DNA from: Limimonas halophila
GTDB taxonomy: Bacteria; Pseudomonadota; Alphaproteobacteria; Kiloniellales; Rhodovibrionaceae
Assembly: GCF_900100655.1 (NCBI RefSeq)
Contig: NZ_FNCE01000003.1
Location: forward strand, 62,001-126,000
Length of the DNA stretch: 64,000 nucleotides
Direction of reading: 5' to 3'
Numbering within the stretch: position 1 is the stretch's first letter; each line of letters opens with the position of its first letter. The notes beneath the pieces are model-generated. The model was given only the letters and a program-made list of their open reading frames with translations. It was not told the origin of the DNA and made no database searches. A program made the translations under genes and the position numbers. Shown here piece by piece: positions 28,939-33,303 of this stretch.

Positions 28939-29101
28939 CATGGGATGCAACGCCCGGCGTTGCCCTGGAATCGTCACGATTGTGCCAAGCTGTGGCGCGG
29001 GGTGGTGGCCTGGAATGCGGTTATCGCGTGAAAGGCGCCCGTCCGGTGGATTCCGGATGGTGGCGTCCTTACATGCCGGTCAAAAGGGGATGGACCGCAT
29101 C

Positions 29102-29800
29102 ATGCCGGAAACCGTGGCGCTGGTGGACGACGACCGCAACATTCTGACCTCTGTTTCCATGGCGCTGGAGGCGGAGGGCTACAAGGTGCGCACCTATGCC
29201 GACGGGCAGGAGGCCTTGCGCGGGATCGGGACGCAGCCGGTGGATGTGGCGATCGTGGACATCAAGATGCCGCGCATGGACGGCATGGAGCTGCTCAACC
29301 GGCTGCGCGAGGAGTCCAACCTGCCGATCATCTTCCTGACCTCGAAGGACGACGAGGTGGACGAGGTGGTGGGCCTGCGCATGGGCGCGGACGACTACAT
29401 CACCAAGCCGTTCTCGCAGCGCCTGTTGATCGAGCGCGTGCGCGCGGTGCTGCGCCGCGAGCGGCTGGCGGCGGGCACCGAGACGGACGAGGGCGAGCAG
29501 ACGATCGTGCGCGGCGAACTGACGCTGGACCCGGCGCGGCACCTGTGCACCTGGAAGGGGCGGGAGGTCACGCTGACCGTGACCGAGTTCCTGATCCTGA
29601 AAACGCTGGCCCAGCGCCCCGGGCACGTGAAGTCGCGCGATCAGCTCATGGACGCGGCCTACGGCGAGGCGATCTACGTCGACGACCGCACGATCGACAG
29701 CCACATCAAGCGCCTGCGCAAGAAGTTCAAGGCGGTGGACGACGACTTCGCGCAGATCGAGACGCTCTACGGCGTGGGCTACCGCTACCGCGATGCCTGA
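29102..29800 (+). CDS. chvI: Two-component response regulator ChvI
   Basis: A 232-residue OmpR/PhoB-family regulator. The receiver domain (1-120) has the acidic pocket VDDD at 8-11, phospho-acceptor Asp53 (IVDIKMP) and Lys in TKPF. The C-terminal winged helix (130-230) has [17 protein letters not shown] and [15 protein letters not shown]. It matches ChvI, which with ChvG controls envelope and acid stress and host-association genes in alphaproteobacteria. The start at 29102 is spaced correctly from AAAGGGGA, whereas ATG 29090 is too close. The last 8 bases overlap chvG. Confidence 0.92.
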
Positions 29801-31490
29801 CGCCGACACCGGAACCAGCCAAGCCGCAGGCGAGCAGGACGCGCGGCGCACGGTGCGCGCGGCGGGGCGCCGCCGCCACCGTCAGGCGTGGCGGTCGCCC
29901 CTGCTGTGGCGGATTCTGGCGATCAACGTGCTGGTGCTGCTGATCCCCGTGCTGGGACTGCTGCACCTTCAGCAATACCGGGAAAGCCTGATCGGGGCGG
30001 AACTGTCGGCGCTGCGCACCCAGGCGCGCGCGTTTTCCACCACCCTGGCCAACAGCGCCGCCGTGGTGTCGGCCAGCGGGCAGGAGCGTTTGCTGCCGGA
30101 GGCGACGCGGCACGCCCTGCGCGTGCTGGCGGCGGGGCGCGACATCCGCGCGCGCGTCTTCACCCGCGACGGCCGCATGATGGCGGACAGCTTCGCGCTG
30201 CTGGGCGCGGGCGGGCAGGTGCGCGTGGAACACCTGCCGCCGCCGGATTCCACGACCTTCCTCCCCGCAGCGCTCAGCGACGCCTACCGCTGGGTGCTGC
30301 GCCATGTGCCCGGTGTGGGGGAGTTTCCGCGCTACCGGGAAAACGCCGTCCAGAGCGCCGAGGACTACCGCGCCGTCGAACGTGCCCTGGAGGGCGAGGG
30401 CGCGGGTCGGGTCTACCGCAACGGCGAGGGCGGCCTCGTGCTGACGGTGGCCTCGCCGGTGCAGCGCTACCGCAAGGTGCTGGGCGCGCTGATGATCTCG
30501 CGCAACGGCACGGACATCCAGGCGGCCGTGCGCGACCGGCGCACCGACATCCTGATCGTTTTCGGCATCGCGCTGGGCGTGACGCTGCTGCTGTCGTTCT
30601 ACATGACGCGCGCGATCGCGCGGCCCATGCGCCGGCTGGCGGAGGCCGCGGACGCCGTGCGCCACGCGCGCGGGCGGCAGGCCAACATCCCCGACCTCTC
30701 GCAGCGCGGCGACGAGATCGGCGACCTCTCGGCGGCCCTCAACGAGATGACCGAGGCGCTGTGGGACCGCCTGGACGCCATCGAGCGCTTCGCCGCCGAC
30801 GTGGCGCACGAGATCAAGAACCCCCTGACCTCGCTGCGCAGCGCGGTGGAGACGGTCTCGCGCGTGGACGATCCCGAGCAGCAGAAGAAGCTCATGGGCA
30901 TCATCCTGGAGGACGTCCAGCGCCTGGATCACCTGATCAGCGAGATCTCCGACGCCTCGCGCCTGGATGCCGAGCTGTCGCGCGCGGAAACCGCGCCCGT
31001 GGAGCTGGCGCGGCTGTTGGAGGCGCTTGTGGAGGTGCAGCGCGCCGGCGCCGAGGAAACTGGCCCGGCGTTCGAACTGCACCTGCCGCACGGGGCGGAC
31101 GGCGAGCGCGACGCACTCATCGTGCCGGGCCTGGAGGCGCGGGTGGCCCAGGTCTTCCGCAACCTGATCGCAAACGCCGCGACCTTCTGCCCACCCAACG
31201 GCACGATCGCCGTCACCGCCCGCCGTGTGGACGGCTGGGTGGAGGTCACGGTGGACGACGAGGGCCCCGGCGTGCCCGAGGCCAAGCTTCAGGCCATCTT
31301 CGAGCGCTTCTACACCGACCGCCCGACGGCCGAAAAAGCGGGCACCCACTCCGGTCTGGGGCTCGCCATCTGCAAGCAGATCGTCGACGCCCATCGCGGC
31401 ACGATCACCGCCGAAAACCGCCGCGACGCCGACGGCACGATCACCGGCGCACGCTTCACCGTCCGCCTCCCCGCCCAAGACCAAAGATGA
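29793..31490 (+). CDS. chvG: Sensor histidine kinase ChvG
   Basis: A 565-residue membrane sensor kinase. Two membrane segments (about 37-57 and 249-270) flank a periplasmic sensing domain; then come a HAMP linker, the H-box with His339 ([12 protein letters not shown]), and an ATPase domain with [17 protein letters not shown] and [12 protein letters not shown]. It phosphorylates ChvI; in relatives its signalling is restrained by periplasmic ExoR. The N-terminal cytoplasmic tail is Arg-rich. It overlaps chvI. The next real gene, 450 bases on, is hprK-rapZ, the usual alphaproteobacterial order. Confidence 0.92.
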
Positions 31491-31647
31491 TCTTTGGGAG
31501 CATCTGTCATTCGATACCAGCGTGGCATCGAGATGAATGGGTCTCTCATGACCGAACGAAAGGTTGTTTGATCCCATCCGTCTCTCGACACCGGTGTGCC
31601 GTGGCGGATGGACCGGGCACGCACGACCAAATATGATTTGTGGAAAC

Positions 31648-31679: not shown

Positions 31680-31732
31680 TACAGTGCTACGTTACCCTTC
31701 TCGGAGAAAATGATGTCTCCCTGCGGTTGTGT

Positions 31733-31788
31733 AGGGCGGATTGGCCGTAGGCCCGCCTGCGGCGTCGCCGCGCAAGCGGCAATCCGCC
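31733..31788. repeat. Repeat family D, copy 3
   Basis: Nearly identical to 15197-15251, including the middle CGTAGGCCCGCCTGCGGCG. It abuts the broken antitoxin-like reading frame at 31799 and probably marks the break. Confidence 0.8.
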
Positions 31789-31798
31789 GATCGAACGG

Positions 31799-31933
31799 CG
31801 TGGGCAGCTGCGGTTCGAAGAGAAGACGCCCAACGAGGCCACGCGCCAAGCCATCGAAGAGGCGCGCGCACGCACCGATCTTACGCGCCACGCCAGCGCT
31901 GCGGCGCTGTTGAGCGGGGAGGATAACGCGTAA
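31799..31933 (+). pseudogene. 3' remnant of a RelB/DinJ-type antitoxin gene
   Basis: In the frame ending at TAA 31931-31933 the sequence reads LRFEEKTPNEATRQAIEEAR, then ARTDLTRHASAAALLSGEDNA. This is the C-terminal, toxin-binding part of RelB/DinJ antitoxins, about 44 codons. There is no start codon: a TAG lies in frame at 31748 and the upstream DNA is a family D repeat. The N-terminal DNA-binding half and the toxin gene are missing. The assignment rests on pattern recognition of a short segment. Confidence 0.6.
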
Positions 31934-31944
31934 GTTCGGCTGCC

Positions 31945-33303
31945 ATGACCCACCGCATCCACGCCACCTGTGTCGCGCTCGACGGGCGGGGTGTGGTGCT
32001 GCGCGGGCCGTCGGGCGCGGGCAAGTCGGCGCTGGCGCTGCGGCTGATCGCGGAAGCCGGCGCCGCCCTGGTGGCGGACGACCAGACCGAGCTGACCGCC
32101 CACGGCGGCGAGGCGGTCGCGACGGCCCCGGCCGGCCTGCCCGCAGCGATCGAGGGGCGCGGGGCCGGGCTGCTCGCCGCGCCGCGCATCGAGCGCGCGC
32201 CCGTGGCGCTGGTGGTCGACCTCGTGCCCGGCACCACCGTCCGCCTGCCCGATCCGGCCGAGGTCACGCTCGACGGCATCACCGTCCCGCGCGCCGAGCT
32301 GGACGCGGGCGACCCGGCGGCCGTCGCGAAAGTGTTGCTTGCGGTGCGCGGGGGCTGCGGCGCAGGCTCGCGCCCCACACCGCAGGATCGTACCGCCATG
32401 ACCGAGGCGCCGCCACCCGCCGACCCCGCCGCCGCGCGCCGCGTCGTGCTCGTCACGGGCATGTCGGGGGCCGGCCGCTCCACCTTCCTGCGCGCGCTGG
32501 AGGACGTGGGCTACGAGGTCGTGGACAACCTGCCTTTGCACCTGCTGGACGCCGTGGTGCGCGAGGACGGCCGTGACACCCCCGTCGCCATCGGCATCGA
32601 CATCCGCTCGCGCAGCTTCGCCGTCGAGCCCTTCCTGGACGCGCTGGACGCGCTGCGCGCCGATCCGGCGCTGGCGGTCACGCTGGCCTTTCTGGACTGC
32701 GAAAACGCCGTGCTCCAGCGCCGCTACACGGAAACGCGCCGCCGCCACCCGCTGGCGCGCGAGCGCCCCGTGCGCGACGGCATCGCCGCCGAGCGGCGCC
32801 TGGTCGAGCCGCTGCGCACGCGCGCGGACATGGCGATCGACACCTCCACGCTCGATCCCAAGGACCTGCGGCATCTGGCCGCCGCGCAGCTCGGCCTGGA
32901 CCGCCAGGCGGGCATGGCGATCTTCGTCACCTCCTTCGCCTTCCGCGAAGGCGTGCCGCGCGAGGCCGATCTGGTCTTCGACGTGCGCTTTCTGCGCAAC
33001 CCGCACAGCGATCCCGAGCTGCGCCCGCTGACGGGCCTGGACCCGGCCGTGGGCGAGCACGTGTGCCAGGACCCGGACTACCCCGCGCTGCGCGCCGGGC
33101 TGGCGGCCATGCTGCGCCGCCTGGTCCCGCGCTACGAGCGCGAGGGCAAGAGCTACCTCACGATCGCCGTCGGCTGCACGGGCGGGCGCCACCGCTCCGT
33201 CGCCGTGGCCGAGGACTTGGCCGCCATCCTGCGCGGCCTGGGCCGCGAGCCGGTGCTCAGCCACCGCGACCTGGGCGACAGCGCGGGCGGAGCGCCGGCA
33301 TAA
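31945..33303 (+). CDS. Fused HPr kinase/phosphorylase and RapZ
   Basis: A 452-residue open frame joining two proteins normally made separately. Residues 1-145 are the short alphaproteobacterial HprK, with the P-loop GPSGAGKS (21-28) and LVADDQTEL. Residues about 167-445 are RapZ (YvcJ family), with Walker A GMSGAGRS (172-179), DIRSRSF and the C-terminal GCTGGRHRSV (410-419). HprK phosphorylates HPr of the nitrogen-type phosphotransferase system. RapZ binds nucleotides and, in enterobacteria, controls small-RNA decay. ATG 32398 with AGGA upstream (32384-32387) begins the RapZ part, so internal initiation could also give free RapZ. The usual EIIA and HPr genes do not follow. Confidence 0.85.
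   Translation: MTHRIHATCVALDGRGVVLRGPSGAGKSALALRLIAEAGAALVADDQTELTAHGGEAVATAPAGLPAAIEGRGAGLLAAPRIERAPVALVVDLVPGTTVRLPDPAEVTLDGITVPRAELDAGDPAAVAKVLLAVRGGCGAGSRPTPQDRTAMTEAPPPADPAAARRVVLVTGMSGAGRSTFLRALEDVGYEVVDNLPLHLLDAVVREDGRDTPVAIGIDIRSRSFAVEPFLDALDALRADPALAVTLAFLDCENAVLQRRYTETRRRHPLARERPVRDGIAAERRLVEPLRTRADMAIDTSTLDPKDLRHLAAAQLGLDRQAGMAIFVTSFAFREGVPREADLVFDVRFLRNPHSDPELRPLTGLDPAVGEHVCQDPDYPALRAGLAAMLRRLVPRYEREGKSYLTIAVGCTGGRHRSVAVAEDLAAILRGLGREPVLSHRDLGDSAGGAPA

Follow-up and report, generated by a model that had tools for sequence, protein, structure and literature searches.

A single gene at positions 31945–33303 of the forward strand encodes an HPr kinase (HprK) and a RapZ protein in one frame, which runs from ATG to TAA with no stop in between and yields 452 residues (47.6 kDa). 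The window, by which we mean the whole stretch of 64,000 nucleotides that was analyzed, belongs to a genome in whose order (Kiloniellales) most relatives carry the same fusion. To judge from this conservation, the fused frame is probably a genuine and long-kept link, and not a sequencing error. We favor, at a probability of roughly 0.55, the idea that the gene makes one bifunctional protein, fused near the base of the order, in which the ligand of RapZ would set the serine phosphorylation of HPr in cis. A literature search that covered titles and the openings of abstracts found no description of an HprK-RapZ fusion. As far as the comparison of genomes can tell, the fusion is real and old in the order, and it is built from two known families.

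The fused frame and its two halves

The earlier note had read HprK and RapZ in a single stop-free frame, and this was borne out by Pfam, which places three domains above cut-off on the 452-residue protein: Hpr_kinase_C at residues 3–78 (45.6 bits, cut-off 33.3), RapZ-like_N at 167–313 (139.2 bits, cut-off 25.4) and PapZ_C at 324–443 (141.5 bits, cut-off 27). All three were also present in each of the 28 fused proteins scanned, out of 41 fused loci. On the forward strand, the HprK domain, which is of the short alphaproteobacterial form, spans 31951–32358 (about residues 3–138, by Hpr_kinase_C and a fold match). It is followed by a linker at 32356–32433 that is predicted to be disordered, with pLDDT below 50 at residues 138–159, in agreement with the length of about 25 residues that had been proposed. 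The N-terminal P-loop domain of RapZ occupies 32434–32883 (residues 164–313; Pfam and a fold match to 9m1v_A) and its C-terminal domain 32914–33273 (residues 324–443; Pfam and a fold match to 5o5s). The AlphaFold model of the fused protein has a mean pLDDT of 86.8 and is confident for most of the domains, but not for residues 138–159; at a pTM of 0.46 it contains no fixed docking of the HprK and RapZ halves, and no interface that would back allostery. The folds resemble those of E. coli RapZ, the N-terminal domain of Rv1421 and L. casei HprK/P. In the 3.04-Mb genome, the fused protein is the sole match at E ≤ 0.01; neither half has a second copy, and the fused gene is the single match of the genome for HprK or RapZ.

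The P-loop of the HprK half (GPSGAGKS, 32005–32028) lies at residues 21–28, as the earlier note had it, and retains its lysine. All 39 fused rows that extend to the region have the same lysine (two of the 41 are cut before it), as do 44 of 47 separate rows. The window HprK further keeps a histidine before the P-loop (His6), two aspartates after it (Asp45-Asp46), Glu70, Arg72-Gly73 and Gly75, and it matches L. casei HprK/P (1kkl_B) with a TM score by target of 0.67. The whole-enzyme model TIGR00679 of NCBIfam is not reached (48.7 against a cut-off of 240), as expected of the short form. The published HprK signature reads (I,L,M)E(I,V)RG(I,L,M,V)G(I,V)(I,L,M) (PMC2937029). In the window, the corresponding IEGRGAGLL fits at six of the nine positions and departs at three, with E, R, G and G intact, and because of these departures the HPr kinase of the window may be weak. 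Residue 67 is Ala in the window and Gly in 38 of the 41 fused rows.

The RapZ half scores 313.4 bits (cut-off 244) with the NCBIfam equivalog for RapZ, NF003828 (PRK05416.1), and its N- and C-terminal domains match 9m1v_A and 5o5s with TM scores by target of 0.81 and 0.92, respectively. The Walker A motif of RapZ is situated at residues 172–179 (GMSGAGRS, 32458–32481), where it had been located before, but it is degenerate and not intact, since Arg178 replaces the Walker lysine. An Arg or His occupies this position in all 41 fused rows. Separate RapZ proteins have the lysine in only 10 of 47 rows, so that it does not appear to define the RapZ family in this class. E. coli RapZ and YvcJ possess the lysine (Lys22 in YvcJ, PMC7525490), and exchange of Lys22 for Ala abolishes UDP-GlcNAc binding by YvcJ (PMC7525490), which argues against nucleotide sensing by a RapZ with Arg or His. 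In favor of sensing, Rv1421 of M. tuberculosis likewise has an Arg at the Walker position of our alignment, and its N-terminal domain binds UDP-GlcNAc (PMC11229554). Whether the fused RapZ senses nucleotides is therefore unsure.

The core of the C-terminal domain is conserved, including the stretch GCTGGRHRS that is common to the window and E. coli RapZ, and the C-terminal domain of the E. coli protein binds GlcN6P (PMC9841335). RNA binding by E. coli RapZ needs Lys270, Lys281, Arg282 and Lys283 (PMC7073468). In the alignment, Lys270 faces an Arg of the window RapZ; the tail HRDLGDSAGGAPA of the latter lacks the basic C-terminal RNA-binding tail of the E. coli protein, and none of the 41 fused tails reaches three basic residues over the five positions compared at the place of Lys281-Arg282-Lys283. 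As the fused tails are without this basic cluster, a role as RNase adapter for GlmZ/GlmY as in E. coli is unlikely for fused RapZ.

Distribution of the fusion and probable translation of the join

Each of the 61 available genomes of the order carries a relative, which is fused in 42, split in 18 and unreadable in one. By genus, 22 are fused, five split and one unknown, and the fusion is thus found in 22 of 27 readable genera. The junction was read in 56 of the 61 genomes (40 fused, of which G001 and G032 are cut on the HprK side by contig ends, and 16 split); these 56 loci represent 24 genera, 20 fused and four split, with none mixed. Of the remaining five genomes, two (G296 and G043) are fused up to the ends of their contigs, two (G295 and G297) are split, and the region is missing from G040. 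Comparison of the junction in relatives, which had been suggested as a check, speaks for the fusion as such, but takes away its exceptional status.

Outside the order, the situation is different. We sampled 241 genomes of the class, 237 of them from other orders. In 185 of the 241 there is a match to the fused protein, mostly over the RapZ range, and G286 is the only genome outside the order for which the matches listed show a full-length span free of stops. From the better-scoring rows, 33 loci were fetched and one (L088) was dropped for having no HprK match; hprK and rapZ are separate in 31 of the 32 class loci read outside the order. Seven of these (L060–L066) had been chosen because a single alignment crosses the junction, so that selection accounts for their frame-0 state. 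Among 199 genomes sampled from the phylum, the only fused cases among the matches listed are G000 and G006, both of the order. The best 80 of 588 relatives in named organisms gave 54 readable loci (in 25 the stretch contains no HprK match, and in one the match is far off); none of the 54, which are mostly Alphaproteobacteria and of which none was shown to be of the order, is fused. The plasmid search found hprK adjoining rapZ in Azospirillum, Sphingomonas and Paracoccus, as separate genes where both features are given. The view that the two genes are neighboring but separate in alphaproteobacteria mostly holds elsewhere (31/32 class loci outside the order and 54/54 named loci), but not within the order (42/61 genomes fused).

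In a RapZ tree of 88 rows, the 56 rows of the order form one clade (97/97), and the fused label requires 5 changes of state, compared with 29.5 after shuffling. The tree excludes the five genomes read later, and the basal branches of the clade are poorly separated. Read most simply, it suggests a single fusion at the root of the order, followed by three splits (in G002, in genus g14, and in g6 together with g12); by this reading, the tether would be dispensable in at least three lineages, because the genes have split again there. We take the fifth change to be a separate gain in G286, apparently an independent event in another family of the class. In G286 (L059) the frame is fused, but AGGAGG stands only two bases ahead of a linker ATG, which makes a fused product less sure. 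In genus g14 (L020, L022, L027), a single in-frame TGA parts hprK from rapZ and no ATG precedes RapZ; RapZ may be made there by read-through or from a GTG start.

An open frame alone is poor proof of a fusion, because linkers in such GC-rich DNA are often open in other frames as well: the other two forward frames are also open in 25 and 18 of 40 fused linkers. More telling is the behavior of linker length, measured between the fixed reference columns 134 and 167, which ranges from 15 to 65 residues among the fused relatives. For 10 fused genera, at least two members could be compared. Within these, no fewer than 13 changes of length took place, each of them a multiple of three, and every member is in frame; if the changes are independent, the chance of 13 three-base steps is about (1/3)^13 = 6e-7. 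In the split genus g6, hprK and rapZ occur in all three relative frames. We therefore take the constancy of the in-frame state within genera, and not the length of the frame, to be what excludes chance. The substitution pattern, in contrast, was dropped as proof of translation. Counts at the three codon positions of the linker are 490/503/673 for fused pairs (third position 40%) and 32/42/45 for separate in-frame pairs (38%), from overlapping pairs; there is no third-position excess that would be a coding signal, and fused pairs do no better than separate ones. A fast-evolving disordered linker would give such a pattern, yet the pattern is no support for translation.

Start codons were counted over columns 138 to 167. 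ATG, GTG and TTG are all absent from 14 of the 40 fused linkers, and 7 further linkers lack ATG. Because of the 14, RapZ can hardly be made alone in those lineages, although it might start inside the last helix of HprK. A fused product is likely.

Possible internal start and promoter-like element

The earlier note had also pointed to an internal start that might give free RapZ. The elements are present in the window, where an ATG at 32398–32400 follows an AGGA at 32384–32387 by 10 nt, and the product from this ATG would have a calculated mass of 32.8 kDa; this value and the calculated 47.6 kDa of the whole protein compare with the roughly 32 and 48 kDa that had been named before. The start is not conserved, linker ATGs lie at differing places among relatives, and with 21 of 40 fused linkers devoid of ATG it is no general feature.

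Within the 3' end of hprK, a CTTGC at −9 and a hexamer resembling TATAAT at +17, counted from a fixed HprK column, recur in many loci. This CTTGC-N20-TATAAT element is found inside the hprK coding sequence of many Alphaproteobacteria and is complete, for example, in L041, L020, L073 and L076; the window has one half, CTTGCG at 32338–32343 of the forward strand, and lacks the TATAAT half. The codon at +18 is ATA in 25 and ATC in none of 88 rows, while ATA makes up 62 of 1359 Ile codons in the flanking domains; the codon at −9 is CTT in 45 of 88 rows, as against 464 of 5092 Leu codons. The constraint on this element thus acts on the DNA. Its halves co-occur, with CTT in 31/32 rows that have TAT at +17 versus 14/56 that do not (Fisher 8e-12), and with 11/12 versus 11/38 when one row is kept per genus or family (1.7e-4). 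Within the order, the −10-like half is retained by 15 of the 16 split loci and 10 of the 40 fused ones, or, counted by genus, by 4/4 split and 4/20 fused genera; separate class loci have it in 11 of 31 cases by a looser pattern.

The element looks like a rapZ promoter, though one with a long spacer, and is a candidate only: the spacer is 20 nt counted from CTTGCC and 19 from TTGCCN, and as this exceeds the textbook spacer of 17, the label "promoter" is unproven. In our reading, rapZ would no longer have needed a transcript of its own after the fusion, and the element would then have decayed. A promoter scan gave no standard match inside the fused gene and one match upstream, at 31609–31637. 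A relaxed −35/−10 scan against shuffles had a modest excess (below 0.05 in 12/41 fused and 9/47 separate rows) and was given up in favor of the position-specific tests.

PTS genes, proposed role and known systems

Upstream of the fused gene, on the same strand, lie a ChvI-like response regulator (28940–29800; Pfam Response_reg and Trans_reg_C, named from synteny) and a ChvG-like sensor histidine kinase (29793–31490; Pfam Stimulus_sens_1, Sensor_TM1, HisKA and HATPase_c). A ChvG-like match is upstream in all 38 fused loci of the order for which the sequence extends far enough in that direction. EIIA-Man is downstream in 37 of the 38 with enough sequence on that side, and the window is the exception. 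The report that EIIA and HPr are missing is right for the DNA directly downstream, but not for the genome (G000), where EI, HPr and EIIA-Man lie together on contig C9 (C9:48859–51438, L068), away from chvI-chvG-hprK-rapZ. The EI has the N, mobile and C domains of PEP-utilizers in Pfam, and the HPr retains LHARAA, as well as GDSIMGLMMLAA around its serine. Between chvG and the fused gene there is a dispersed repeat (31731–31789) with 10 matches in the genome including itself, four of which cover most of it. An open stretch that ends just before the fused gene (31802–31933) bears a weak likeness to the final part of a RelB antitoxin, but as the match is below cut-off (Pfam E 0.14) we do not count it as a RelB remnant.

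Together, these data suggest a model in which a short HPr serine kinase, a flexible linker and a complete RapZ form a single bifunctional protein. The fusion would have arisen near the base of the order from the neighbors hprK and rapZ of a chvG-hprK-rapZ-EIIA-HPr cluster, and would have been kept in most of the order. An amino-sugar metabolite would be bound by the RapZ part (GlcN6P by its C-terminal domain, perhaps UDP-GlcNAc by its N-terminal one), and the ligand state of RapZ would determine, in cis, the extent to which the kinase phosphorylates HPr on serine. The supply of envelope precursors would thereby be tied to the regulatory PTS and, by gene neighborhood, to ChvG/ChvI. The fused frame, its conservation, the many lineages without separate RapZ starts and the core residues of both halves are directly established; from there, the model takes the kinase step from homology to the Brucella enzyme (PMC2937029), sensing from E. 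coli RapZ, and gating from the fusion alone.

Other explanations have to be weighed against this model. The fusion could be real and serve only as a tether that fixes the ratio and place of two independent halves, with no cross-regulation. The disordered linker of very variable length (15–65 residues), the low pTM (0.46) and the re-splitting in several lineages are all consistent with this idea, which we nevertheless regard as rather improbable; retention in 22 of 27 readable genera suggests some benefit, although stoichiometry could still be that benefit. We also consider it unlikely that the gene has two products, full-length protein and free RapZ, the latter made from the ATG at 32398 or, in relatives, from a transcript that starts inside hprK. 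The AGGA 10 nt ahead of this ATG and the element of the relatives, with its −10-like half in 10/40 fused and 15/16 split loci of the order, speak for a second product, which would be compatible with the bifunctional protein; the missing TATAAT half in the window, the scan without a standard promoter inside the gene, and the 21/40 fused linkers without ATG speak against it.

A decaying HprK half, such that only the RapZ half still matters in this strain, is quite improbable. It would account for the signature departures at three of nine positions, for Ala67 where 38/41 fused rows have Gly, and for the relocation of the PTS genes away from the locus, but not for the retention of His6, the P-loop, Asp45-Asp46, Glu70, Arg72-Gly73 and Gly75, for the HPr serine region kept in the genome, or for a reading frame without damage. 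Least probable by far is an artefact or chance, in which a missed stop or an assembly frameshift merged two ordinary genes. High GC content and the other forward frames open in 25/40 and 18/40 fused linkers invite this suspicion, but with 42 of 61 genomes fused and no mixed genus among 24, it is refuted for the order as a whole.

The bifunctional protein, if it works as proposed, would matter beyond this locus. RapZ is common in the class, to judge from the 185 of 241 sampled genomes that match the fused protein, and in the portions of the literature that were available no role is assigned to it there. A fusion that persists across an order suggests with which protein RapZ works in this class. 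If an amino-sugar ligand of RapZ alters HPr kinase activity, the regulatory PTS would be linked both to the supply of envelope precursors and to the envelope response of ChvG/ChvI. It is a tentative extension, possible rather than probable, that alphaproteobacterial RapZ in general is a metabolite-sensing subunit of HPr kinase and not an RNase adapter, with GlcN6P or UDP-GlcNAc setting HPr serine phosphorylation whether the two proteins are fused or co-encoded.

The product of crh is an HPr-like substrate of HprK. In B. subtilis, yvcJ and crh are in one operon (PMC6171935). The gammaproteobacterial operon rpoN-ptsN-rapZ-ptsO (PMC13104625, PMC5024086) also places RapZ with regulatory PTS genes, as here, and the tie there is by operon only; in Salmonella, EIIANtr hampers GlmS (PMC5024086). 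HprK itself is described as lacking in most other proteobacteria, E. coli included (PMC13104625).

For the kinase half, the closest known system is that of Brucella melitensis (PMC2937029). Its short HprK, like that of the window, lacks two parts of the Firmicute enzyme, the N-terminal domain and a phosphorylase region at the C-terminus. The Brucella enzyme is active as an HPr kinase and is a poor phosphorylase (PMC2937029). Its gene has, as here, PTS genes and a two-component system of the ChvI/ChvG type for neighbors (PMC2937029). The Brucella HprK is a free protein, whereas the window HprK is the N-terminal half of a fusion. For the RapZ half, E. coli RapZ (5O5O, 5O5S; PMC5737377, PMC9841335) shares both domains, at 35–41% identity between aligned full-length chains; it has the Walker lysine and the RNA-binding residues, whereas the window has Arg at the former and, among the latter, a basic residue only at the position of Lys270. 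YvcJ of B. subtilis and Rv1421 are RapZ homologues as well, for neither of which a kinase fusion is reported in the parts of the sources at hand. YvcJ keeps Lys22, whereas fused RapZ has Arg or His there and Rv1421 has Arg.
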